59,920 bases of DNA from positions 1-59,920 of IMG/VR virus record IMGVR_UViG_3300035199_000797; one strand, 5' to 3'. The position numbers were made by a program, and so were the translations under genes. This stretch comes from a virus. Shown here piece after piece: positions 280 through 59,840 of this stretch. How positions within the stretch are numbered: position 1 is the first letter of the stretch; every line of letters begins with the position of its first letter. The notes beneath the pieces are model-generated. The model was not told the origin of the DNA. It did no database searches and worked only from the letters and a program-made list of their open reading frames with translations.

Positions 280-1371
280 TCATTCGTCGCTCTCATCGAT
301 CTTTTTTCGCGCCCGTTTTGCCGCTTCCCGGCCAGGCTTCACATAGGTCTCCAAAACCGGCGAATTTAATTTGTGACCGCTGAAGGAAACGATCTCTGCC
401 ATGGTCGCGCCCTTGTTCCCCATGTTGGTCAAAGCGGTGGTTCTGAGATCGTGGAATGTCAGGCTGCGCTCCAGGCCGGCCCACTTGCATGCCCTCCTGA
501 AAGCCTTCCCGAACGCGTTCTTGTCCTTGTACGGTTGCGTCGTCATTTCGTTGACGATGATGTGCGTGTGGAAGCGGTTGATGCCGTCGAGCATGGTCCG
601 CGTTTTGTCGGCCAGCGGGATCCACAGCTCTTTGCCGCCGCGCCTCTTCTTTTGCGTCACCGTAAACCCGCCCTCGGAATATTGATCCCAGGTTAGGGCG
701 AGAATGTCCTGCTGTGGCAGGCTGGTGTCGAACGCAATCTGTGTTGCCAGCGCGATCGATGGCCTGGACGGCGCGATGTTGCCTTGCTCCGATTTGTGCG
801 AGGTCATCGCGGCTGCGATCACGCGATCTACTTCCCATTGTGTCCAGATCACGTTCCGGCCTGCCGGGCTCTCCATTTTGAAGCCGTACATTGGATGGGT
901 ATCGATGATCTCCAATTCCAGAGCATACGAAAACAGCCGGTGAACCCACTTCATGATCTTGCGGGCTTTGTGGGCCGATCCTTCGATGCGGAGATCATTG
1001 TAGAGGGCGCGCAGATGGCTGCGTCGAATTGCCTTCACGCGCACTTTGCCCACCTCGGCGGCAAACACCCGGAACGCATAATCGATCTCTTGCTGGGTCC
1101 GCGGCGCTTTCGTTCCATACCACGTGGGGTCTTTTTCAAATCGCCCTATCAGCCAGTTGATATCGCCTTTTGGGACGGCGACCAGCGGGTTCGCTTTCAG
1201 GGCATCCCACTCGGCATTGTAGGCGGTGACCTTCGCGACGGCCGCTTTGTGGTCCTCCCCAATCGTTTCGCTACGGTAGCCTGCTTCGCGCATAGCCGGT
1301 GATGGCGTGAAGCGGTAAACCTCGCGCTGGTCCACCGTGGTCCATTTCCGCAAATGCCTGGTCTTTTTCAT
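280..1371 (-). CDS. int: Tyrosine-recombinase integrase
   Basis: Phage site-specific recombinase of 363 aa, next to attL and reading toward it. The N-terminal part carries a SAM-like core-binding domain (about residues 65-160); the catalytic domain follows (about 175-345). Visible catalytic residues are H307 and R310 in the HDLR motif, H333 in the SGH motif and the nucleophile Y343 in ETY. The first catalytic arginine, expected in a TGLRxGD-like box, is proline here (residues 216-222 read TSLPQQD; codon 715-717 is CCA). One base change would restore CGA, Arg. The start overlaps the stop of the excisionase-like gene by four bases (ATGA), so the two are probably translated together. The family call is certain; activity is in doubt because of P219. 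Confidence 0.95.
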   Translation of the reverse strand: MKKTRHLRKWTTVDQREVYRFTPSPAMREAGYRSETIGEDHKAAVAKVTAYNAEWDALKANPLVAVPKGDINWLIGRFEKDPTWYGTKAPRTQQEIDYAFRVFAAEVGKVRVKAIRRSHLRALYNDLRIEGSAHKARKIMKWVHRLFSYALELEIIDTHPMYGFKMESPAGRNVIWTQWEVDRVIAAAMTSHKSEQGNIAPSRPSIALATQIAFDTSLPQQDILALTWDQYSEGGFTVTQKKRRGGKELWIPLADKTRTMLDGINRFHTHIIVNEMTTQPYKDKNAFGKAFRRACKWAGLERSLTFHDLRTTALTNMGNKGATMAEIVSFSGHKLNSPVLETYVKPGREAAKRARKKIDESDE

Positions 1372-3288: not shown

Positions 3289-4125
3289 TCATTGCGCTGG
3301 CTCCATTCCGGCCGGAAACTCCTGGTGCTCTACACCATCGAGTAGATGACCGGCGCGGGACTTGCCGACTTTCCAATATTCTCCATCACGCCTCAGATCC
3401 GGGGCAATCGTTGCTGTATCGATGATCTGATTGCTTGGCATCCATTCCCCCCATTGTTTCATAAAGAACGGAACGCCAGCCGCTTTGCACTGATCCCGCA
3501 ATGACCGTGCCCATTCGGGATGCATTGGCCGGGCGTTCGGACCGCTTTCGCCGCCACAAATGGCCCAGCCGATGTAATCCAGCCAGGGCGCCCAATCGAC
3601 TGGCCCCAAGGCAGGTTCGTAGCTTACGAAAGTTTTCCAGCCATTAATGGCCAACGTCTTTATCGCCGGCAATCGGAGACGCGCCATCTTGTCGTTTTCC
3701 ACCGTGACGCCGATGCGCACGTTCGGCATGGGCGTCTCTGGCAAATATTTGCGCAACAGGGCATGGCGCTTGGAGAGCAACAACCAGTCCAGATCTGGCG
3801 TCTCGTTGATACGGCCCAACAACCTTGTGCGCCATGCCCGGGGAACTTCCTTATCGGCCCAATCGGCGAGAGAGGCGCAGAACACCCGCCGCCGCCGCCC
3901 ATGTTCTGCCATGAAGGCCGGAGCCTGGCGCTGCCATTTCAACGGCTTCTTCCAATTGGCGTCCGAGGTTAGCCGGCGCGGCCGGCCATGACCCCATTGC
4001 ACGGTCTGGAACCTGTTGGCCCGGGCCTCTGCATAACAGTGATCGCAGGCCGGGCTGACCGCGGTGCAGCCCTCCCATGGATTCCATGTGGCGTCCGTCC
4101 ACTCGATGTTGCTTTGCTCAGCCAT
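3289..4125 (-). CDS. DUF5131 (phage Gp37/Gp68-like) protein
   Basis: A 278-aa protein with the family hallmarks: N-terminal SNIEWTDATWNPWEGC, then a cysteine cluster C-x7-C-x2-C (CTAVSPACDHCYAEA), later CASLADWAD and CGGESGPNARP. The family is widespread in phages and resembles radical-SAM or iron-sulfur proteins in its cysteine pattern; its reaction is not established. It abuts the HNH gene (stop and start directly adjacent) in the leftward early operon. Family assignment is firm, function unknown. Confidence 0.9.
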   Translation of the reverse strand: MAEQSNIEWTDATWNPWEGCTAVSPACDHCYAEARANRFQTVQWGHGRPRRLTSDANWKKPLKWQRQAPAFMAEHGRRRRVFCASLADWADKEVPRAWRTRLLGRINETPDLDWLLLSKRHALLRKYLPETPMPNVRIGVTVENDKMARLRLPAIKTLAINGWKTFVSYEPALGPVDWAPWLDYIGWAICGGESGPNARPMHPEWARSLRDQCKAAGVPFFMKQWGEWMPSNQIIDTATIAPDLRRDGEYWKVGKSRAGHLLDGVEHQEFPAGMEPAQ

Positions 4126-8420: not shown

Positions 8421-9161
8421 ATGAATTGGCTACACAACCTTGCGTCTATTGAGCGAAACCTGCGCAAACGCCTGGCGGCCCTTGGGCTTCATGTTGAACG
8501 CCACCATGATTTCGAACAGTTGCGGGATACCGTTGCAGCCGCGGTGACGACACCCTTTAATCCGACGTTCAACCCGGACCTGAGTGACATTGACCCTCAA
8601 AGCTGGTGGCTGGCCGCCCGTGATGGAGCCGGGGATATCGTCGCCACACATGCCGTCAGAGTATTCCGCGACAAAGATTTGGAAGTGTTGATCTGGAACG
8701 GTCTGTTGTTCTTCCGCCGCGAGGACAGGCCCCTGAACTGGTACGAGATCGCTCCCCGCCACCAGCCAACCAAGAACCGGGTGCAAGGCACGTGGTCGCA
8801 CGCCGGAGCAACCTGGGTGCGCAAAGACTGGCGAGGCAGGGGCCTCACCAGTCTATTGCCAATTCTGGATCAAATTGATTGCCTGCGCGATCCCTCAATA
8901 GGCCATGTAACCGGCATCGCTTTTCAGGAAATCGCCGGCCGTTCGATCTTGGAGAAGGGTTACGGCTTCCCACCCGAGCGCGCCGAGAAAATCCTGGACG
9001 GGCATTTCCCAGGCACAGGCCGCAAAGAAGAGCTTTGGCTGTGCCACATGCCCCGAGAAATGGCGATAGGGCATCTAACTTCCGTGTTTAGGGCCGTGAT
9101 AGAGAATGTCCGAGATGGTGATGATGTGTCGGATCTCTCCCGTACTGTCGGCGACGGGTAG
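8421..9161 (+). CDS. GNAT-fold acyltransferase-like protein (module copy A)
   Basis: A 246-aa protein. The GNAT core is seen in the beta-strand/loop WVRKDWRGRGLTSLL (about residues 131-146), matching the acyl-CoA-binding V-x-x-x-x-R-G-x-G pattern, followed by an alpha helix and GYGFPP. It shares short motifs, in order, with the protein at 56213-56932: NPTFNP against NPSFEP, and near the C-terminus a x-L-x-H-x-x-R-E motif (LCHMPRE against LTHISRE). Its 3' end overlaps the convergent PAS-like gene by 87 bases, just as in the other copy. Substrate unknown; a LuxI/FeeM-like signal synthase is one possibility, a protein or small-molecule modifier another. Confidence 0.72.
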   Translation: MNWLHNLASIERNLRKRLAALGLHVERHHDFEQLRDTVAAAVTTPFNPTFNPDLSDIDPQSWWLAARDGAGDIVATHAVRVFRDKDLEVLIWNGLLFFRREDRPLNWYEIAPRHQPTKNRVQGTWSHAGATWVRKDWRGRGLTSLLPILDQIDCLRDPSIGHVTGIAFQEIAGRSILEKGYGFPPERAEKILDGHFPGTGRKEELWLCHMPREMAIGHLTSVFRAVIENVRDGDDVSDLSRTVGDG

Positions 9162-9683
9162 AATGAGCCGGTCATATGCGCTGACGCGTCCATCTATCAT
9201 TGTTCCGCTAATTCGATGAATTACCGGCCGCCGCTCAGGCAGCGCTTCCATGTAGCCTTTGCAGGTTACCTCCACCATATCGGTGGCTGGTAGATCCCCG
9301 ACGCGCCTAGCGATAAACGATTTGGATTCAAAGGCTCCGAAACTGTGGCCCCAGAACCGGAATAGCCAGTTCTCAGGAGAATCTTCGCTCAACGCAATGA
9401 GCGTGGCGCGTGGCCCCTCAAGTAACCACGGGCGCAATAGGTCGTACAATTTGCCGTCTCGACCTTCCTGGAACACCCCGTCCGTCGCGATATTAAACCA
9501 CGACTCCATCGCCATGCTCATACGAAGGTCAGTGATGGCCTCAATTGGGAAACGCTGGCTAAGAGCTACCGTCGACGGCTTAATGGGTAGAAGCGGCACT
9601 TTGGGCTTTGCGAAAGGCCGTGGCGTCGATAGCGGTACTACATTATGAGAGATTCTACTTTTATGCGAGCACAAAACACACAC
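9075..9683 (-). CDS. PAS_5-like domain protein (module copy A)
   Basis: A 202-aa product from GTG 9683 (preceded by a G-run); an ATG near residue 55 is an alternative. Residues about 70-195 fit the PAS_5-type sensor fold: FRFWGHSFG, RRVGDLPATDM, then AYDRLILPVADSTGEI and IITI. PAS domains bind small ligands or cofactors. It is convergent with the GNAT-like gene and overlaps its last 87 bases. A matching Y-x-R-L-x-x-x-V-x-D-x-x-G motif occurs in the PAS-like protein at 56858-57556. No output domain is present, so it is a stand-alone sensor. Confidence 0.68.
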   Translation of the reverse strand: MCVLCSHKSRISHNVVPLSTPRPFAKPKVPLLPIKPSTVALSQRFPIEAITDLRMSMAMESWFNIATDGVFQEGRDGKLYDLLRPWLLEGPRATLIALSEDSPENWLFRFWGHSFGAFESKSFIARRVGDLPATDMVEVTCKGYMEALPERRPVIHRISGTMIDGRVSAYDRLILPVADSTGEIRHIITISDILYHGPKHGS

Positions 9684-9757
9684 CCCCCGTCTTTCTTGCT
9701 ATCAGATCAAGATAGTACAAAGTAAGCGTGCCGGTGTAAAGATTATGCTATTCAGGG

Positions 9758-10264
9758 TTATCCAGATGCGATTGCTTCTTCAATCGCACGGTTGGCCTCG
9801 TCTCGTTCACGGGCAAGATCAAAATATGCGCTGATATCAGCCGCGGATGGTAGTTGGCCGGTATCTCGGTAGATCCGCGTAAAATTCGAGCACCCAATTG
9901 CAATGTTCCGCGCCAATTGTTCCGGCGTCTGATCCTGGCTAAGGGCTGCGTCATTTTCGATGCAGAACCGGGCAACGCGATCGATTAAGGCAGGCGGCAC
10001 GTTTTTGTCTCGCTGCTGCGGGGCTGCGGAAAATTCGACCTCACCAATTATTTCGCTGACGGTGGAATCAACCGCGCCGGCGAACTTCATGAGTATGTCA
10101 AGCCGCATAGATTGGGATTGACGGCCCAGGAAATTCCGCAACGTGGAATCGGCAACACCAGCGTCTCTCGCCCATGGGGATACTTCTAATCCCCGAGCCT
10201 TCATAAACCGCTTGATCGCCTGCCTTATCTGTTCTGCATCGCCCGCGTTCATGGGAACAATCAT
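9758..10264 (-). CDS. CI-type lysogeny repressor without peptidase domain
   Basis: A 168-aa protein with an N-terminal XRE-type helix-turn-helix (about residues 10-65): MKARGLEVSPWARDAGVADS then TLRNFLGRQSQSMRLDIL. It is divergent from the Cro-like gene across an 87-bp intergenic region with an inverted repeat, the classical switch. The C-terminal 90 residues are helical and show no S24/LexA serine-lysine peptidase motifs, so RecA-stimulated self-cleavage is unlikely. The start may be ATG 10264 or the ATG four codons later; GAGG lies very close to the first. Confidence 0.8.
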   Translation of the reverse strand: MIVPMNAGDAEQIRQAIKRFMKARGLEVSPWARDAGVADSTLRNFLGRQSQSMRLDILMKFAGAVDSTVSEIIGEVEFSAAPQQRDKNVPPALIDRVARFCIENDAALSQDQTPEQLARNIAIGCSNFTRIYRDTGQLPSAADISAYFDLARERDEANRAIEEAIASG

Positions 10265-14821: not shown

Positions 14822-15536
14822 ACGTGCTGGCGGGGATCCCAAGTTGATAGCCGAGCATATCGACCGGCTGATGGAACGCGCGACAGAGGCCGGCGCGGTG
14901 CCGATCGATGTATCACCGTTCCAACAAGCCGCGGCTTTGGATTGGAGCAAGGCCCAGGCCCACAACCGGCGCCTTCGCAGGGCCCGCCCCAACCGCATGG
15001 CATTCGCCAAGGAGAAGCTGCCAGACCGCGACGGCGGCACGGTAGAGACACGGCGCAAGATCAAGACCGACGTGATCGCCAGGTTGCTCAAGCAGGGCGA
15101 TATCGAACGCATACACCAATCCGCCGCGGATGAAATCCACGATGTCCAGGTGGCCTTGATGATGTGCTTTTTGCCGTCCAAAGGTTCAGAGGTGCGCGTT
15201 GATGATACGCCCAAGCGGCCGGGCCCGTTGGACAAACTGAGCGCACATCACGAGCGGGTCTTCCGGCTACGATACACGCCGTGGGTTAAGTCCATGATGG
15301 CCAGGCCGGTGGAGTTCAGGGCGCTCGAAGGGGGCAGGGAGCGGCTATTCGCTTATCGGCATGCTCTTGCGATTGTCACGGATGTGGTACTGGATAACGT
15401 CGGTATGCGGGAGGTTGAGGGCCGGCATGGAATCCGGCACGGGCACGCTAGGAGGATAGTGCGGGGCTCGCTGGATCGATATTGTTGCGTGGCGGGTTGG
15501 GTAAAGAGGAGAGGTGTTAGCGACCAATATAGTTGA
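14811..15536 (+). CDS. Probable late-gene regulator with C-terminal helix-turn-helix
   Basis: A 241-aa product from GTG 14811, chosen for GGAGGGAC just upstream. The C-terminal 70 residues read as a helix-turn-helix (LDNVGMREVEGRHGIRHGHA, then RRIVRGSLDRYC), similar in layout to sigma-region-4-like phage late regulators. It is the last gene before the cargo and packaging genes, the position of Q-type regulators. Its 3' end recurs three times downstream. It overlaps the convergent gene at 15517 by 20 bases. The DNA-binding role is inferred; no specific family is recognised. Confidence 0.66.
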   Translation: MLVERAGGDPKLIAEHIDRLMERATEAGAVPIDVSPFQQAAALDWSKAQAHNRRLRRARPNRMAFAKEKLPDRDGGTVETRRKIKTDVIARLLKQGDIERIHQSAADEIHDVQVALMMCFLPSKGSEVRVDDTPKRPGPLDKLSAHHERVFRLRYTPWVKSMMARPVEFRALEGGRERLFAYRHALAIVTDVVLDNVGMREVEGRHGIRHGHARRIVRGSLDRYCCVAGWVKRRGVSDQYS

Positions 15537-15820
15537 CTTGGCCATCAGCCTGGATCAACGCTATTTCGATCCCGGCAATTCGGCAGCGGTCAATCATCTT
15601 CTGCGCCAGTCGGCTTGTCCCCTCAGTGCAAGGGACGACTGCAACATTCCTTTCCTGGCCTGGGTCGCGAGACATTAAGAGGCCGACTACTTCACATAAT
15701 CCACTACGAAGTCGAGATTTTAGACCTGGGTGGCGTGTGTTTAGTATCCCGCCCTTGCACTCCGCGATGATTTTTTGACGGTCGGTCAATGCCACGACGT
15801 CTCCCAGACCGGGTTTCAGG
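15385..15820. repeat. Long repeat copy 1 (regulator 3' end plus antisense gene 3' part)
   Basis: This roughly 430-bp stretch matches about 20270-20710 base by base with scattered differences, spanning the regulator C-terminus, its stop and two thirds of the convergent gene. The intact members of both genes are here. Confidence 0.8.
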
Positions 15821-16244: not shown

Positions 16245-16364
16245 ATGTGCGAAATCGATGAGCGGTATGGGGTGCGGCACGGCCATGCGCGGAAGATAGT
16301 GCGGGGTTCGCTGGAGCGGTACTGCATCGTTGCTGGGTGGATGGACAAGGGGAGCTGCGTCTGA
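16245..16364 (+). pseudogene. Regulator 3'-end remnant (copy 2)
   Basis: An open 39-codon frame (ATG 16245, TGA 16362-16364) reads MCEIDERYGVRHGHARKIV, then RGSLERYCIVAGW, aligned with the last 40 residues of the regulator. Homology begins at the methionine of GMREVE. Flanks 16120-16244 and 16365-16529 show no other coding sequence. The frame is intact and could be translated as a mini helix-turn-helix peptide. Confidence 0.75.
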
Positions 16365-20232: not shown

Positions 20233-20420
20233 TGAGAGTGTGGGACAGGGACGCGGTTCATTTCGGCAATGTCGTGCTCGATAATGTCGGCTTGCGGGAG
20301 GTCGAGGAGCGGCACGGGGTGCGGCATGGACATGGGCGGAAGGTGGTGAGGGGGCTGGAGCGGTATTGCAAAGTGGCGAGGTGGTTAGAGAAGAGAGGTT
20401 TTATCGACCAACATAGTTGA
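20232..20420 (+). pseudogene. Regulator 3'-end remnant (copy 4)
   Basis: A 62-codon frame starting in the stop of the helicase (TAATG), reading VVLDNVGLREVEERHGVRHG, then HGRKVVRGLERYC, which matches the regulator C-terminus over about 45 residues. As in copy 1, it overlaps the convergent nuclease-like frame by exactly 20 bases. It may be translated by coupling to the helicase. Confidence 0.75.
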
Positions 20421-20710
20421 CCTGGCCATCAGCCTGGATCAAAGCTATTTCGATCCCGGCAATTCGGCAGCGATCAATTATCTTCTGGGCCAGCCGATTT
20501 GTCCCTTCTGTGTAGGGGACGACTGCGATATTCCTTTCCTTGCCCGGGCAGCGAGTCATTAAGAGGCCGACCGCCTCACATAGTCCGCTACGAAGGCGGG
20601 ATTTTTGACCTGCGTGGCGGGTGTTCATTATCCCTCCCTTACATTCCGCGATGAATGTTTGGTGGTCGGTCAATGCCACTACATTCCCAAGACCAGGTAT
20701 CAGCCGTAGC
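20270..20710. repeat. Long repeat copy 2
   Basis: Diverged duplicate of 15385-15820 (regulator 3' end, stop, and 3' two thirds of the convergent gene). The match fades near 20710. Differences are mostly third-position-like, so both copies evolved under coding constraint or were acquired separately. Confidence 0.8.
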
Positions 20711-34685: not shown

Positions 34686-36119
34686 ATGAATATGCATCGC
34701 CCGCCGACGCGGGGAATCCTATCCGTGCGCGCGGAAGCAAGCCCGGACGTAAAACCGGTTATCGATGAGCTGCAGAAGGCGTTCTCCGATTTCCAGGCCG
34801 CAAATGATGATCGCATTGCCGCCCTGGAGAAGGGGCGCGACGATGCCATCACCAACGAAACCGTCGACAAAATCAACGGGCATGTAACCGTTCTGCAAGA
34901 GAAGCTTGACGATGCCTTGAAGCAGGCTTCCGCCGCGACCGCCGGCGCCGATGAGGCGTTGAAGGTCGCCCAGCGATTGGCGGTTGGCGGCAATCCTGAC
35001 GCCGCCAAATCTTTGCAGGATCTGCAAGCCAACGCTCGGTCTTTCGCGGCGGTACGGCTGGGTAAGCCCATCGACGACATCAGGGAGGTTGATGTTGAGC
35101 AGTATCAGACCTATTGCGCGGCGTTTCGTTCCTTCATTCGGCGTGGCGGCGCTGACGGTGAACTGCTACCCGGGGAGGTTCGCGCTGACCTAATGTCGGG
35201 CTCTGATGCGGAAGGCGGTTTCTGGGTGCCGACCGAAATGGCCAGCCGTGTCCAAACCCGGCTCTTCGAGACATCCGATATTCGAAACATCGCAACCGTC
35301 GAGAGTACCACGGCTGACAGTTGGGAACTGCCCATCGACGTCGATGAGGCGGAGTCGGGCGGTTGGGTGTCGGAGCGGGAAACGCGAAACGACACCGATA
35401 ACCCTCGTACGGGCATCCAGAAAATCGAGACCCATGAGCAGTATGCGCAACCGCGTGCCACGCAGCGGATTCTCGATGACGCCACCCGTGACGTGGAAGG
35501 CTGGCTGGCTGGGAAAATCGGCGACAAGCTAAGCCGCACGGAAAACACCGCCTTTGTCTCTGGTACGGGTTCGGGCCAGCCTCGCGGTATCTTTTCCTAT
35601 GGTGCCGCGTCGCTGGTAACTGACGATAGCTCCCGTGCCTGGGGTGTTCTTCAGCATATCATTTCCGGCTCCGCAACAGGCTTCCCAACCGTATCGGGCA
35701 GCACCGCGAGCGATCCGGATGCGCTGATCACGATGATTTCGAAGCTCAAGCCTTTCTACCGTGGGGCGGCGCGCTGGCTGATGAACCGTGCGACCGAAGC
35801 GGCCATCCGGAAACTGAAAGACGCGGACGGGCGGTATCTGGTTGGCATGGGCGACATCCGGGACGGTGTCGTCGGCTTCAATCTGTTCGGCTACCAGATG
35901 TCGACCGCGGAAGACGTGGCCGATATCGCATCGGACGCATTCGCGATTGCGTTTGGCGATTTCGGGGCCGGATACACGATCATCGATCGTCAGGGTCTTC
36001 GTGTTCTGCGCGATCCCTACACCTCGAAACCGTTCGTGAAGTTTTACACCACCAAGCGTGTCGGCGGCGACGTCACTGATTTTGACGCCATCAAGCTGAT
36101 GAAATTCGCGGCATCGTAA
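34686..36119 (+). CDS. Major capsid protein, HK97 fold
   Basis: A 477-aa protein. An N-terminal coiled-coil delta domain (about 15-115) acts as internal scaffold and is normally removed by the protease. The HK97 body follows: GGFWVPTEMASRVQTRLFE, WLAGKIGDKLSRTENTAFVS, GTGSGQPRGIFSYG, and RGAARWLMNRATEAAIRKLK. It has GAGGTAA-type ribosome site before ATG 34686. Confidence 0.95.
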   Translation: MNMHRPPTRGILSVRAEASPDVKPVIDELQKAFSDFQAANDDRIAALEKGRDDAITNETVDKINGHVTVLQEKLDDALKQASAATAGADEALKVAQRLAVGGNPDAAKSLQDLQANARSFAAVRLGKPIDDIREVDVEQYQTYCAAFRSFIRRGGADGELLPGEVRADLMSGSDAEGGFWVPTEMASRVQTRLFETSDIRNIATVESTTADSWELPIDVDEAESGGWVSERETRNDTDNPRTGIQKIETHEQYAQPRATQRILDDATRDVEGWLAGKIGDKLSRTENTAFVSGTGSGQPRGIFSYGAASLVTDDSSRAWGVLQHIISGSATGFPTVSGSTASDPDALITMISKLKPFYRGAARWLMNRATEAAIRKLKDADGRYLVGMGDIRDGVVGFNLFGYQMSTAEDVADIASDAFAIAFGDFGAGYTIIDRQGLRVLRDPYTSKPFVKFYTTKRVGGDVTDFDAIKLMKFAAS

Positions 36120-36131
36120 GGAGATTGAACA

Positions 36132-36569
36132 ATGCCAAATCGTTCCATACATGACCGTATTTCGGTCCTACGCCACCTAAATGGTGTCTTCACGTCGACT
36201 CAGTCTCCGAGCGCCGGGGTAGATCTGTTGGGGTTGTTTTCCGCGGAAATCGTTGCTGACGTCGGGGCGGTGCCGAATATCGCCAACTCGCCGCAGCCGG
36301 GTTGGACCCTTGCCTTGCAGCATTCCGACGCTGCGGCTTCGGGCTTCGCGGCAGTGGCATCGACGGACGTCGTTTTGCCGGATGGCGATGCCCTCGGCGG
36401 TAGCGGTGTCTTCGCCACCATCGATGCCGCGGTGGAAGACGACACCATTTATCGTCTCGGATATGTCGGCAACAAGCGTTACGTCCGCGTGGTCGCCACG
36501 GCTGCGAACACGCCGGGCGCCACGCCTGTTTGCGTCAATGTCCTTGGCGAGAAAATGCTCACAAGCTGA
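36132..36569 (+). CDS. Putative head decoration or capsid-associated protein
   Basis: A 145-aa protein immediately after the capsid gene with GGAGATTGA upstream. Features: VLRHLNGVFTSTQSPSAGVD, YRLGYVGNKRYVRVV. The family is common after the capsid gene in alphaproteobacterial phages and is usually described as capsid-associated. The exact role is not established. Confidence 0.65.
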   Translation: MPNRSIHDRISVLRHLNGVFTSTQSPSAGVDLLGLFSAEIVADVGAVPNIANSPQPGWTLALQHSDAAASGFAAVASTDVVLPDGDALGGSGVFATIDAAVEDDTIYRLGYVGNKRYVRVVATAANTPGATPVCVNVLGEKMLTS

Positions 36570-49573: not shown

Positions 49574-50359
49574 GTGGCGAAGAAACGACGCGCTAAAGGG
49601 CGGTTTAGAGACTTCATTGGGGGGCAGGACACCGCTGAGGGGATTCTGCCCCTGACCCATATCACACGTGCGTTCTCGTTCGATGATATGTTGGACGGTG
49701 ACGGTCTTGAGCCCGAGCCCTGCGATGTTTTCGGCGAGGAACTTATCTATCTCTTTTATGGCCGGCCGGCTTATCGGGCAAGAGATGGTTCCAACGCGCG
49801 ATTGGAGTATTCATGGCCAGTTGTTTTCATTTTCGACCCCAAAGAAGTTCAAAGCGTAAAGCGCGTATTTCCTTTCGACACAGGAGCTTTCAAGAATGGA
49901 CGCTATAATGGATTCTTCGACGAACGTAATGTAAGGAACGATTTTGAATTGCATCCGACTATAGAAAGTGCCCGCCAAATTGTTGGCACATTTTACCAGG
50001 ACCATACTGAATATTTCACGGGCCTATCAAGGAAGAACGTAGATCTTCCAATCCGCCAATTCGAAGCGCAAGGCATTCATGAAATGGCAAAATTACCTGG
50101 GGATAGCCGTGACGAACGATCCTCGGCAATTGAAGTCCAGATTAGCGATTTTATCAATTTCAGGGATAGCCTTTTGGCTATAGTAATTCCGGATGTCTAC
50201 CTTGACGATTCCGAAACTATATCCGCTCTTAAAAATTGGCAGATCGATTTCGACAACATTAGGACCTATCAAACGCTGCACAACATGGGCGGGGAAGCAT
50301 GGATTGGTCAGATTTATGCGATCGTTAGAAACCTTTACGAAAAATTGGGGTACCTCTAA
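49574..50359 (+). CDS. Conflict-system-type protein (unknown enzyme), partner of FGE protein
   Basis: A 261-aa protein starting at GTG 49574 (GAGGAATTC upstream). LTHITRAFSFDDMLDGDG resembles the N-terminus of ADP-ribosyltransferase-like toxins (Hi-T followed by a short helix), then LIYLFYGRPAYRARDGS and VFPFDTGAFKNGRYNGFF. The active site cannot be assigned. It overlaps the FGE-type gene by one base (TAATG), so the two form an operon. Its lower GC suggests transfer. Confidence 0.5.
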   Translation: MAKKRRAKGRFRDFIGGQDTAEGILPLTHITRAFSFDDMLDGDGLEPEPCDVFGEELIYLFYGRPAYRARDGSNARLEYSWPVVFIFDPKEVQSVKRVFPFDTGAFKNGRYNGFFDERNVRNDFELHPTIESARQIVGTFYQDHTEYFTGLSRKNVDLPIRQFEAQGIHEMAKLPGDSRDERSSAIEVQISDFINFRDSLLAIVIPDVYLDDSETISALKNWQIDFDNIRTYQTLHNMGGEAWIGQIYAIVRNLYEKLGYL

Positions 50360-52605
50360 TGATATCAACGAATAATTCAGAGTTCAGCCATCAAATCGCT
50401 GACTCGTTGGTGCAGAATGGGCGGCTCGTGGGCTGTCTGCGGCTGGGTGGCAAATCGCCGAGCGCCGTGTTGCCGGTATTCATCGACGCCGATAATTTGG
50501 ACGCTCCAATGCTTCTCTACCAGCGAATTGATGAGATGGGCCTAGTTCTTAAATTTGTCGAAGACCGAGACCTTAATTCGAACCAATTACTGAGTGTGGA
50601 GAATACGGGCCAAGACCACATAGTGGTTTCCATCGGCGACCCCGCTGCGCAAGCCTACGAAATCAATGAAATGAATGTGTTCGTGGCACAGGGCGATGTA
50701 TTTCGAGAGCGAATGAGTGCTGCTCTCGATGATGAGACTTTTTCGGGAAGGCCCTTTACCGGGCTTGGAGTTGCGCGTTTTCTCGGCGATGCTGCTGCCG
50801 AACGACGCTATCTAGAGGCCTGCAATCATGCTCTCTCCACATACACGCCACGTATGGCACAAGCCGGGCGAACCTCGACGGATATGGGGAAAATTGTTGT
50901 CGGGTCTGCCGGTGAATCCGAACCGAGCACAGAAAATGAACTAGGAACAACAGAGGAAATACCCGATGGAAATCAACGAATTGTTAGTGCTGCGATCAAT
51001 TTCCACAGAAAATTTGCGGATATGCCACGCCTCGTTGCAGATATCGACCCGCCCGTCAGGCAACGTTCCGTACAGCCGAATTTTCGCAATCTAATAAGCG
51101 CGACCACCAACCTGAAAAGCGCGCTAAGGACTTCGAGCTCCCTGCCAGCCATATTTCCATTGGTCGAAGTTGAGGAACTTCTCGAAACCATTCTGCTTTT
51201 TCCAGACAGCAGCCCTCAAGAACTTCCGACCCTACTTCAAGCGGCGGAGAGTGTTCTGTCGGACCTGCGTAACGAGTATGTCCCGCGAAATCCCGCGGAT
51301 GGCGACGACAAAGAATTGCCGGGTTTTGGAAACCTGCGCCAGGCGGCGAGTGAGGTTGTCGCGGAATTGCGGGGAGTATTCTTGAGATTAGACCCGGTCG
51401 TTGTCGCGGCGACGACACCGACCAGCGAGGAATTAGCGGCGTTCGCCCCAGAAGCAGGGCAAGTCGACTTGTTGGCCGAAGTGGTCAACGACACGCGTGA
51501 GGCGGACGCGGCGATCGAGCGCGGCAAGAAAGAAATTGAGCAAAACAATTACCACCTCGTCGGCATCAACATCACTATCAAGTTAAACGATCTTAAGATC
51601 GGCGATGCTCTGATCCGTGCCATCGCCAAGTTGGACATGGTGCGTCTGCATTGGCTCGAGAAGCTGGGTGGAAGCCTGGCCAAGGCTCCCGAGGCAATAC
51701 TAACATTGGCAGAAGCATTGCCACCTGCTCTCGGTGCAATCGAAATTGTCGCCAGAGAACTGAGAGAGGGGACTGCCAGGATCGCATCTCATCTCAATCA
51801 GTTATCAAGTGGCACGACGCAATTGTCACATGGAATCAGACCTGATCTTTCTAGCTTCCGCGACGCTGAGTGGTCGCCGGAGATGGTGGTGATTCCCCAG
51901 GGGACATTCCTGATGGGGTCGCCGGTGGGTGAGGAGGACCGCGATGATGATGAAGGTCCGCAACACGATGTGGCAGTCAGCGGCTTTGCGCTTGGCCGTT
52001 ATCCGGTCACGTTCGAGGATTATGATCGGTATTGCGAGGCGAAGCGGATCGAAAAACCCGGTGATGAAGATTGGGGCCGGGGCCGGCGGCCGGTGATCAA
52101 TGTCTCGTGGGAGGATGCCCAGAATTATATCATATGGCTGAACGAGACCCTTGAGTTATCACTGGGCACCTATCGCCTGCCGTCCGAGGCTGAATGGGAG
52201 TACGCCTGCCGGGCGGGGACGGCGAGCCGTTATTCAGGCGGTGACCATGAGGCAGAGCTAGACGCCCAGGCCTGGGAGACGGAGCTTGACGCCCATGCAT
52301 GGCATAGGGAGAACTCGGATTCAGGATCCCATCGGGTGAGCGAGAAGCTTGCCAACCCCTGGGGCCTTTTCGACATGCATGGCAATGTCTGGGAATGGAC
52401 CGAAGATCGCTGGCACGACAATTATAATGGCGCTTCAGGTGATGGCTCTGCCTGGATTGCAGGTAACGACAAACTCCGTGTTCTTCGCGGCGGCTCTTGG
52501 AACAACGGCCCTAGGAACCTGCGCGTGGCGGCCCGCAACAAGGAGGGCCCGGAGGAGCGCTACTTCACCGTGGGCTTCCGCCTTGCCAGGACGCTTTCGC
52601 GCTAG
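50359..52605 (+). CDS. Multidomain protein with C-terminal FGE-sulfatase/C-type-lectin domain
   Basis: A 748-aa protein. Residues 1-500 are unassigned and partly helical. Residues about 507-748 form a formylglycine-generating-enzyme-like (CLec) domain: EMVVIPQGTFLMGSPVGEED, GRYPVTFEDYDRYC, YRLPSEAEWEYACRAGT, NVWEWTEDRWHDN, RVLRGGSWNN and VGFRLART. The catalytic cysteines of true FGE are not obvious. Such domains serve as variable ligand-binding heads in DGR systems and in bacterial conflict systems. The last 40 residues look like a DGR variable region (see findings). Confidence 0.78.
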   Translation: MISTNNSEFSHQIADSLVQNGRLVGCLRLGGKSPSAVLPVFIDADNLDAPMLLYQRIDEMGLVLKFVEDRDLNSNQLLSVENTGQDHIVVSIGDPAAQAYEINEMNVFVAQGDVFRERMSAALDDETFSGRPFTGLGVARFLGDAAAERRYLEACNHALSTYTPRMAQAGRTSTDMGKIVVGSAGESEPSTENELGTTEEIPDGNQRIVSAAINFHRKFADMPRLVADIDPPVRQRSVQPNFRNLISATTNLKSALRTSSSLPAIFPLVEVEELLETILLFPDSSPQELPTLLQAAESVLSDLRNEYVPRNPADGDDKELPGFGNLRQAASEVVAELRGVFLRLDPVVVAATTPTSEELAAFAPEAGQVDLLAEVVNDTREADAAIERGKKEIEQNNYHLVGINITIKLNDLKIGDALIRAIAKLDMVRLHWLEKLGGSLAKAPEAILTLAEALPPALGAIEIVARELREGTARIASHLNQLSSGTTQLSHGIRPDLSSFRDAEWSPEMVVIPQGTFLMGSPVGEEDRDDDEGPQHDVAVSGFALGRYPVTFEDYDRYCEAKRIEKPGDEDWGRGRRPVINVSWEDAQNYIIWLNETLELSLGTYRLPSEAEWEYACRAGTASRYSGGDHEAELDAQAWETELDAHAWHRENSDSGSHRVSEKLANPWGLFDMHGNVWEWTEDRWHDNYNGASGDGSAWIAGNDKLRVLRGGSWNNGPRNLRVAARNKEGPEERYFTVGFRLARTLSR
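52490..52590 (+). other. Candidate DGR variable region
   Basis: In the last 33 codons of the FGE domain many codons have the form NNC (AAC, AAC, GGC; GCC; AAC; GGC; TAC, TTC, ACC), as expected when AAC codons of a template are mutated at adenines. It lies at the expected surface loop positions between GGSW and GFRLA. Confidence 0.35.
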
Positions 52606-56212: not shown

Positions 56213-56932
56213 ATGACGGCCATTGCACCCGCACGCGACATCCACGCCGAATATGCTGCCCTGCAGGACGCCTACGATGCCGAAGAGGCCGCGCTCCGGG
56301 CGAAAGGCTTCACAGTCGCGCCCAAGTGTACCTCCGACTGGCTGGCGTTCATGCGGCTCTATGGCGCCAATACGAACCCATCCTTTGAGCCGTCGCAGGC
56401 AGTGACGGCGGAGAACAGCCTATCGTTGATCTGCCGGGATCCCGATGGCCAGGCGGTCGGAGCGATCGCACTCCGCGCCTATGACATGGCGGATATCCGC
56501 GAGCACCTGGTTACGGGGCGTCTGTGGTGGCCAGCCCATGAAGCGATCCAGCACCGGGTTGAATATGTGCTGCCCGGCGACTTCCCGCCCATATCCGGTC
56601 GCGTGGTGCAGATCGGCGGCTTGAAGGTTGTTCGCAATGGGCACCGGATTGGCAGCCACCTCGACGCCATGGCGCGGCTGGCAGCGGCGAGCCTCTTTCA
56701 TGCCGATCACATCGTTGCCATCCGAATGTCGGACAAGGTGGCGGAAATGCCGGGTGACTATTACGGGGCAAGGCGCACGGCGCTGGCGGTCCGGGCCCTA
56801 TCGATCGGCTGCCCGGCGGCGGAGTTTCACCTGACCCATATCAGCCGGGAAGAGCTTCTAGGCGGCCTCATGGATGGCGGCGATGACGACGTGCTGGACG
56901 CAGCCCATATCGTCGGTTACGCCGGTTACTAG
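56213..56932 (+). CDS. GNAT-fold acyltransferase-like protein (module copy B)
   Basis: A 239-aa protein from ATG 56213 (GAGGTAAC upstream). GNAT core: VQIGGLKVVRNGHRIGSHLD, with the acyl-CoA loop R-x-G-H-R-I-G. The motifs NPSFEP and EFHLTHISREELLG match copy A (NPTFNP, LWLCHMPREMAIG) in order and spacing. Overall similarity is low, suggesting old divergence. It overlaps the convergent PAS-like gene by 75 bases. Confidence 0.7.
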   Translation: MTAIAPARDIHAEYAALQDAYDAEEAALRAKGFTVAPKCTSDWLAFMRLYGANTNPSFEPSQAVTAENSLSLICRDPDGQAVGAIALRAYDMADIREHLVTGRLWWPAHEAIQHRVEYVLPGDFPPISGRVVQIGGLKVVRNGHRIGSHLDAMARLAAASLFHADHIVAIRMSDKVAEMPGDYYGARRTALAVRALSIGCPAAEFHLTHISREELLGGLMDGGDDDVLDAAHIVGYAGY

Positions 56933-57732: not shown

Positions 57733-59610
57733 CTACCACGACCTCGAGCGACCGCCATTAAAGAATAATCTCTCTGGATCGGGGATCTCCCAGTCCTTGC
57801 GGCATGCTTTCATCCGATATCTTGCCTCGAAGTTTCTGGGAAGTTTCGTTTCCAGATCGCCACAAGCGAAGACGAGCATGTCCCTTGTCAAGCCGCTCAC
57901 ATTTCGTAGGTCGGCGGCACTGAAGTTGACCCCTGCGAATTTGACGCCCGCCATTTTGGCGCCTTGAAGATAGGCACTGCGGAGGTCGGCTCCCTCGAAA
58001 TTGGCGCCTTTGAGGATTGTGCCTTCAAGGTTGGCGCCATGGAGATTTGCCCAAGACAAGTTTGCCCCATTGAGGTGCGCGAGTCTGAGGTTGGCCCCTT
58101 GAAGATTGGCGAATCGGAGTTTGGCCCATCGGAGTTTAGCCGATTCGAGATTAGCCCCCTGGAGTTTCGCCTGATCGAGTGTTGCCCGCTGAAATTCAGC
58201 GTCCTTGAGGTCGGCCTTCGCAAGGAACACTGACTTGGCTCCTGAAAACCGGAGGTCCGCACCCCTTAATTTGGCGCCTATCACTTCAGCCATTGCCTTC
58301 TGGAATTCCAGCCTGTCAGTTATATCCGGCATAACAGACAGATTGGCAGGCTTGGTTGATACATCAACTTCTGTCAGTTCGGCGTAGGTGGCGAAACCCA
58401 ACAGGTCGACAGCCACAGGTCCACCGATGGCGAGATACGTCAGACCAAGTGATACCAACAACACTGAAGTGGTGACGCGAGCTTCCAGAAACGGTCGTCG
58501 CCAATCGAGGCCAGCTTGAGTACCTGCCAACGTAGCCTTCATTCGTCGAAAGAAAGAAATGCCGGCCCATGAAGTAACTGCTATCGCGACGATCAAAAAT
58601 GCGCTGCCGATCCAGTCATGCCTGGGCAGATAGCGGAGCCAACACGCCCACAATGTGACGGGCACAAGAAACCATGCGGCAAGTACAGACAGCCCAACTT
58701 TGATCAGGGTCAATGGCGTCCGACCGGCGTTGAGTTTTGATACGTAAATGGTAACGAGGCTGGTCAGCAGCCAGGGATAGGCGGTCGCTTCCAGCCTGCG
58801 GCCATCGGGAAAAATTGCCGGAAGCTCGCCCAGGCCGTCCCACATGCTTTGCAAGTAGACATGTTGGTAAAAGTAGAGCACCAAAAGGATCATGGGCGCG
58901 GCCAAAAAGAACCAAGCTATCGGAATTGACGCATTGATGATCGGCAGCGGCGTACCCGATGAATTTGTCAAAAGGGCGGCATCGGTCGTAGTGGCGATGG
59001 TCAGCCAGACGTAGACACATGCGCTGATCATGGCGAGGAAGATGTTGCGGGCGTGTTTGGAATTTTCCTCGACTTGCTTGAGGCCCCGGAATTTCTCAAT
59101 ATCGTCCGGCAGCTTCGCATTGGACAAGTTAGTACCCGCGAGTTGACCGGCCTGGAGACCTGACACCTTCGACAAATTCGCATCGTTCAAGGCCGCGTTG
59201 CGCAAATTTGCGTTTAATAATTTGGCGCCCCCGAATTCAGCGTATCCGAGATTGGAGCTTCGAAGATCGGCCAACCTGAGGTCGGCGTCCTGAAGGTCGG
59301 CGCTATGAAGGTTGGCGCAATGAAGGTCGGCCTGAAAAAGTTTGGTATTCGCAAGTTTGGCTTCAAAGAAATCCACCTGCGAGAGTATCGCGCGTTTAAG
59401 ATCGGCGCCTTCCAAATTTACGCTCAGGGCGGTCGCGCCGGTTATATTGGCTTGCTGGCCTTCTTTGCCGCGGCTCTTCACCCACTTGTCATGCTCGGCA
59501 AGCATGTCTTTCAACTCGTCTTGGGAAATTTCGACACCAGCCATTACTCTGCCCTCCAGAACTTTCTGCGTCCAATTTTCGTTCTCAGCCCTATCGAGGC
59601 GCCTTTCCAT
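57733..59610 (-). CDS. Polytopic membrane protein with two pentapeptide-repeat domains
   Basis: A 625-aa protein. Two pentapeptide blocks (about residues 55-160 and 430-580, e.g. [20 protein letters not shown] and [20 protein letters not shown]) flank about six TM helices (190-400; [32 protein letters not shown]). Each block should be a beta-helix on the cytoplasmic side. Such proteins are thought to organise membrane complexes. A smaller relative sits at 10779-11573. An internal ATG at 59544 is an alternative start. Confidence 0.86.
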
Positions 59611-59755: not shown

Positions 59756-59790
59756 TTAGTCGCAACATTCGCAGACTGCTGCCAAAAACG
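59756..59790. promoter_or_regulatory. Probable integrase arm-type sites, right end
   Basis: TTAGTCGCAA (59756-59765) is the reverse complement of TTGCGACTAA at 258-267. CTGCCAAAAACG (59779-59790) equals 230-241 and abuts the core. 59611-59755 otherwise shows no gene. Confidence 0.48.
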
Positions 59791-59793
59791 CCA

Positions 59794-59840
59794 GCCTCTC
59801 ACGCCGGAAACAGGGGTTCGACTCCCCTTGGGGACGCCAG
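59794..59840 (+). repeat. attR: attR core (47-bp repeat, tRNA-Glu 3' end)
   Basis: Identical to 179-225. Only the 3' part of the tRNA is present, so it is no functional tRNA. The last 80 bases of the window (59841-59920) are host sequence without recognisable features. Confidence 0.92.

Follow-up and report, generated by a model that had tools for sequence, protein, structure and literature searches.

The window, by which we mean the whole 59,920-nt virus record analysed here, holds a complete prophage. A real 60-nt direct repeat (Table 1) forms attL and attR of this prophage, which is integrated at tRNA-Glu and carries terminase, portal and protease genes in addition to its integrase. Within it lie two gene pairs of the same design, copies A and B; in each, a GNAT-like gene on the plus strand runs tail to tail into a PAS-like gene on the minus strand. 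Overlapping convergent pairs of this kind had been described from the letters alone (hereafter, the sequence-only reading), and the ORF coordinates, including overlaps of 87 and 75 nt, prove exact to the base. The pairs had also been placed at both ends of the prophage, which is correct for copy B, about 2.2 kb from the right att site; copy A, about 8.2 kb from the left att site and adjoining a Cro/C1-type repressor-like gene, lies near the end and not at it.

Table 1. Coordinates of the two gene pairs and associated prophage features in the window.
Feature	Position	Strand	Remarks
attL/attR direct repeat, 60 nt	166-225 and 59781-59840		93% identical; 166-225 is the 3' end of tRNA-Glu
Integrase gene	280-1371		
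Predicted GNAT-fold protein, copy A (P0001), 246 aa	8421-9161	+	motif A-like RGRGL
Tail-to-tail overlap, copy A, 87 nt	9075-9161		
Predicted single-domain PAS-fold protein, copy A (P0002), 202 aa	9075-9683	-	GTG start; PAS core at about residues 40-196
17-mer CTATC-N7-GATAG	9699-9715		perfect 5-base inverted arms; 16 bases upstream of PAS A start
Cro/C1-type HTH (HTH_26) gene	9758-10264	-	directly upstream of PAS A, same strand
Putative GNAT-fold protein, copy B (P0003), 239 aa	56213-56932	+	
Tail-to-tail overlap, copy B, 75 nt	56858-56932		
PAS-like protein, copy B (P0004), 232 aa	56858-57556	-	alignment, synteny, rank 4 of 214

The motifs previously quoted for the two families are likewise present. 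The GNAT copies carry NPTFNP and LCHMPRE (copy A) or NPSFEP and LTHISRE (copy B), and the PAS motif is found in both copies, as YDRLILPVADSTGEIRH and YRRLVTGVTDDMGCVQH. A profile of relatives aligned to P0003 confirms that the GNAT copies are homologous (hhalign E 2.3e-7 over 195 columns). Copies A and B share 22-26% identity in their alignable parts and occupy long tree branches, so they do not stem from a recent duplication and are either old paralogues or separate acquisitions.

Family assignments were examined with profiles built from relatives alone, with no window protein included, against which all 214 window ORFs were scored. The GNAT profile ranked P0001 and P0003 first and second (E 9.8e-12 and 2.2e-7; next ORF 0.006). 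An AlphaFold2 model of P0001 from a shallow alignment (mean pLDDT 65, pTM 0.69) retrieved GNAT-fold acetyltransferases as all of its 50 best PDB matches (best E 1.8e-4, probability 1.00); the structure models are of moderate confidence, with target-normalised TM mostly 0.4-0.65. P0001 is thus predicted to adopt the GNAT alpha/beta fold, and P0003 probably does so by homology. Motif A for acyl-CoA (Q/R-x-x-G-x-G/A) is recognisable in P0001 and degenerate in P0003 (NGHRIGSHL). Relative to the GNAT superfamily at large, including EctA, LuxI-like enzymes and GNAT toxins, the window GNATs share the predicted fold and a motif A-like sequence but match no Pfam or NCBIfam model. Their N-terminal region is extended, and in some family members it includes a P-x-F-x-P motif. 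No curated GNAT HMM was matched by the proteins tested (Pfam, E <= 1; NCBIfam, E <= 0.1), and the LuxI-type Autoind_synth family gave no Pfam match at E <= 1 for P0001, P0003 or their relatives.

On the PAS side, the corresponding profile ranked P0002 first (E 8e-5) and P0004 fourth (E 0.026) of the 214 ORFs. The P0002 model, again from a shallow alignment (mean pLDDT 67, pTM 0.66), shows one PAS core, preceded by an N-terminal tail of low confidence; it has 87 PDB matches at E <= 0.001, and the 50 best are all PAS- or LOV-containing proteins. NifL and the DPO receptor VqmA are among them, and the best viral match is a phage PAS domain. P0002 is therefore predicted to have a PAS fold, with no Pfam match to an HTH family. 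P0004 aligns over the PAS core with weak similarity to the profile (E 0.026-0.07) and is the weakest of the four assignments, its putative fold following from alignment, synteny and rank; its N terminus is Ala/Gly-rich and possibly membrane-seeking. The GNAT and PAS folds named in the sequence-only reading are accordingly borne out, directly by predicted structures for copy A and by alignment for copy B. The more specific label of PAS_5 (PF07310) as a Pfam family is not, as neither the window at E <= 10 nor P0002 or P0004 matches it. Pfam at E <= 1 returned nothing for P0001-P0003 and one unrelated weak match for P0004, and PHROGs, NCBIfam and PADLOC models gave nothing convincing for the four proteins. 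An NCBIfam TIGR03252 match to P0002 (E 0.0016, far below the family cut-off) was attributed to chance, as were pentatricopeptide and C5a-receptor matches in profile searches of the PDB. A LOV photoreceptor was also rejected; the photoactive Cys of the GXNCRFLQ helix is absent from P0002 and its aligned relatives, as read from the alignment.

The immediate surroundings of copy A include two features of possible regulatory interest. The HTH_26 gene is context of PAS A and lies outside the conserved pair. Between the two genes, the 17-mer with perfect inverted arms is a possible operator; it is the single perfect match in the window, but 13 of 100 shuffles also yield two matches at no more than one mismatch. 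When the two pairs were scanned for promoters and terminators, the numbers were near chance.

The association of the two families recurs well beyond this prophage. Sampling covered plasmids, chromids and viral contigs. Searches of plasmids with tblastn placed P0001 relatives on rhizobial plasmids (best E 2e-8), and Azospirillum was reached through a copy in Roseibium aggregatum, where a SnoaL-like gene separates a GNAT gene from the PAS-like gene that faces it. Nine complete alphaproteobacterial replicons hold 12 full-length GNAT and 13 PAS matches; 11 of the 12 and 11 of the 13, respectively, lie within 1 kb of a partner, and every one of these pairs is convergent. Random placement of the genes yields 0.03 close pairs on average and never more than 2 in 100,000 placements, although the nine replicons are mutually related and the 11 pairs are not 11 independent events. 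Among viral contigs found through the GNAT gene, a convergent PAS gene is present in six of eight and absent from two, while a ninth contig ends at the PAS gene; searches that began with PAS led to the same contigs as those that began with GNAT, and several of these contigs encode integrase, tail or virion genes. A recurring convergent association had been named in advance as the test that could overturn the functional-unit claim, and it is found both on replicons (11/13) and on viral contigs (6/8).

Two pairs on one element, as in this prophage, also occur on Azospirillum argentinense plasmid p7 (NZ_CP032328.1). Its pairs overlap by 4 and 53 nt, and the plasmid encodes phage tail, capsid and CII-type proteins. 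Further pairs occur on Azospirillum chromids, and A. brasilense Sp7 harbors one. The 163-kb p7 (loci L084, L087 and L088) additionally encodes a type I-E CRISPR-Cas set, Qat genes and a third, truncated GNAT (35999-36382). A DUF5131 gene lies near a pair both in the prophage (3289-4125, minus strand) and in p7 (L073, 3174-4232, minus strand).

Exceptions to the pairing are of several kinds. Bradyrhizobium plasmids carry the GNAT and PAS families far apart, six rhizobial replicons have GNAT without PAS, and in A. argentinense Az39 one PAS gene lacks a neighbouring GNAT. The hypothetical family of rhizobial plasmids (for example pNGR234a and R. bangladeshense p3) is homologous to the window GNAT but, unlike it, has no PAS partner that we found on its replicons. 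A P0004 match in Sinorhizobium was rejected, being antisense to a longer glycosyltransferase-like ORF.

Phages related to this one by terminase were sought as well. A terminase scan of genome contigs gave no match, and the same scan of viral contigs identified 44 related phages. P0003 searched against 22 of these 44 records produced one marginal, unconvincing match, and a GNAT and PAS profile search of the related-phage loci found the pair in none. No match came from P0001 or P0003 as a single query against viral and genome collections, nor from tblastn in named phages. Because the terminase-related phages examined carry no pair, the module is cargo and lies outside the core gene set of this phage group. 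More broadly, it travels as cargo on temperate phages, phage-like plasmids and chromids of Alphaproteobacteria, and this prophage has two copies.

What is constant across the pairs is orientation, and what varies is the overlap. Over 15 pairs, the two gene tails overlap by 87 nt at the most and by 4 nt in others, lie 5-18 nt apart, or are separated by as much as 460-733 nt; the widest-spaced pairs have room for a gene between, and sometimes a whole gene lies there. The overlap, which the sequence-only reading took to be a retained feature, is indeed kept in both window copies but is not conserved across the 15 pairs. Antisense control through overlapping 3' ends, also suggested there, is consequently not a conserved property, given that the tails lie anywhere from an 87-nt overlap to 733 nt apart. 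In the viral contig (provirus) L093 (8001-9188), the GNAT frame stays open through the whole antisense PAS gene to the contig end.

Retention of both genes as a unit, on the other hand, agrees with their recurrence in convergent order and with their correlated tree distances. Across the 15 pairs, GNAT and PAS distances correlate at r 0.92, or 0.88 with one pair per tight clade (permutation p ~1e-4 or less). The pairs co-diverged, which shows co-inheritance and is not proof of interaction, with shared ancestry of the carriers contributing. In Azospirillum groups, dN/dS values of 0.07-0.36 for both genes point to purifying selection. Taken together, we assign a probability of about 95% to the view that the GNAT/PAS pair is an evolutionarily conserved, convergently encoded two-gene module.

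The genes that surround relatives of the pair offer some indication of its chemistry. Rhizobial GNAT relatives adjoin genes for an EctB-type transaminase, an ATP-grasp L-amino-acid ligase and glutamate synthase; in loci L003, L006, L082 and L086 these occur in varying combination and resemble a small-molecule biosynthesis locus. Genes for a DegT aminotransferase and an aspartate kinase lie close to the Roseibium pair. From such neighbours we infer that the GNAT substrate may be an amino-acid-like small molecule. In Azospirillum-type loci (L083, L084, L089-L092, L096), a gene for a helical protein, with weak relatedness across subgroups, lies directly upstream of PAS on the same strand, and in four of them (L084, L089, L090, L091) a Crp/Fnr regulator is encoded upstream of the PAS gene. 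Judged by position, the helical protein and the Crp/Fnr regulator are possible third and fourth partners of the Azospirillum pairs; neither gene is present beside the window copies.

Functional gene pairs are usually organised as operons, and for this reason a conserved convergent pair is unusual. The sequence-only reading knew of no described system of this form, and our search of the open-access literature found none. The GNAT and PAS folds themselves are old; the novelty lies in the module, very probably a functional unit without an earlier description. Although both genes fall outside the family models searched, the two travel jointly in strict convergent orientation across two alphaproteobacterial orders.

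Two known systems invite comparison. The nearest functional precedent, by analogy, is VqmA-phi of VP882-like phages, a PAS-based receptor of the host-made autoinducer DPO through which a small molecule controls phage fate (PMC12802170). In both cases a temperate phage encodes a PAS protein, and VqmA is among the fold matches of P0002; VqmA-phi differs in having a fused DNA-binding domain and a host-made ligand, whereas the protein predicted here is a single-domain PAS without HTH, faced by a phage-borne GNAT gene. MopJ is a single-domain PAS protein without an effector domain that regulates by acting on other signalling proteins (PMC4432633). It and other single-domain PAS_5 proteins resemble the window PAS proteins as small, single-domain PAS proteins in Alphaproteobacteria, but MopJ is a conserved chromosomal gene outside any mobile pair, and PF07310 matches neither P0002 nor P0004.

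For the function of the module, we propose an enzyme/sensor mechanism. The GNAT would transfer an acyl group from acyl-CoA, probably acetyl-CoA, onto a small amino-acid-like molecule, and the PAS protein would bind the product, or its substrate, in a ligand pocket. Because the PAS protein lacks a DNA-binding or kinase domain, the ligand-bound form would act through direct contact with a partner protein, one in control of lysogeny or host behaviour. This partner would be the Cro/C1-type regulator beside copy A or, in Azospirillum, the helical protein and the Crp/Fnr regulator. The two diverged copies in one phage would then constitute two insulated enzyme/sensor channels. The small-molecule context of GNAT relatives and the Crp/Fnr or Cro/C1 genes upstream of PAS make plausible arguments for this mechanism. 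Several observations weigh against it: the two genes are not transcribed together, as those of an enzyme/sensor pair usually would be; GNAT occurs without PAS on rhizobial plasmids and so can work alone; neither the helical-protein nor the Crp/Fnr gene lies beside the window copies; and the structure models are moderate, P0004 is weakly similar to the PAS profile, and the tree correlation is partly carrier ancestry. As a whole, we hold the mechanism tentatively and rate its chances well short of even. If correct, it would describe a phage-borne small-molecule synthase with its own receptor. A stronger version, in which the module is a mobile, self-contained signalling cassette of a phage-borne acyltransferase signal maker and a matching PAS receiver, with each of the two pairs a private channel feeding into lysogeny or host behaviour, is unlikely; were it true, the phage would encode both synthase and receptor, in contrast to VqmA-phi with its host-made signal. 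Even if the enzyme/sensor reading fails, two families annotated as hypothetical gain a shared context from their recurrence.

The order of events might instead be reversed, with the PAS protein sensing a host cue (redox, flavin, heme or a host metabolite) and the GNAT acting as an effector that acetylates a host or phage molecule, such as a regulator, tRNA, DNA or a cell-surface component, and not as a signal maker. Some phage enzymes with a GNAT fold, such as Mu Mom, have macromolecules as their targets; besides VqmA, the P0002 model matches flavin-, light- and redox-sensing PAS domains, and GNAT stands alone on rhizobial plasmids. Set against these points are the aligned PAS proteins, which lack a LOV-type cysteine in the helix where it would be expected, and the small-molecule gene context of rhizobial GNAT relatives, and we consider this sensor-first arrangement possible but on balance doubtful. 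The location of several pairs close to contig (provirus) ends, of one between tail-fibre genes and integrase in viral contig L091, and of the second p7 pair next to Qat anti-phage genes would also suit a moron near prophage ends with a role in defence, anti-defence or superinfection exclusion. Since PADLOC matches none of eight GNAT/PAS proteins and the other annotated pairs have no annotated defence genes alongside, such a role seems quite improbable.

GNAT toxins such as TacT and AtaT exist, and the occurrence of two genes together on mobile elements, at times in more than one copy, recalls a toxin-antitoxin system with the GNAT as toxin and the PAS protein as antitoxin. The genes are convergent and not co-directional, though; the partner is PAS-like and no RHH antitoxin; the GNAT is larger than TacT/AtaT-type toxins and is kept without PAS on many rhizobial plasmids and two viral contigs. 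A toxin-antitoxin function is very improbable on these grounds. There remains the case of hitchhiking, in which the two cargo genes are unrelated and share no more than an insertion cassette; the lack of co-transcription, the variable gap lengths and the extra gene sometimes found between them would agree with it. That account must contend with always-convergent recurrence down to about 20% protein identity, spanning phages, chromids and plasmids of Rhodospirillales and Hyphomicrobiales, and we give it the slightest probability of all.

Finally, the prophage displays features apart from the two pairs. A 300-nt direct repeat (82% identical) occupies 15451-15750 and 20335-20634, and a related four-copy 52-nt family has further copies at 16304 and 17442. 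The gene at 50359-52605 (plus strand) encodes a 748-aa protein of which the C-terminal third matches the phage kinase family phrog_18508 (E 5e-54). The final gene before the right att site (57733-59610, minus strand) encodes a 625-aa protein in which pentapeptide repeats are numerous and the middle part is probably membrane-embedded.
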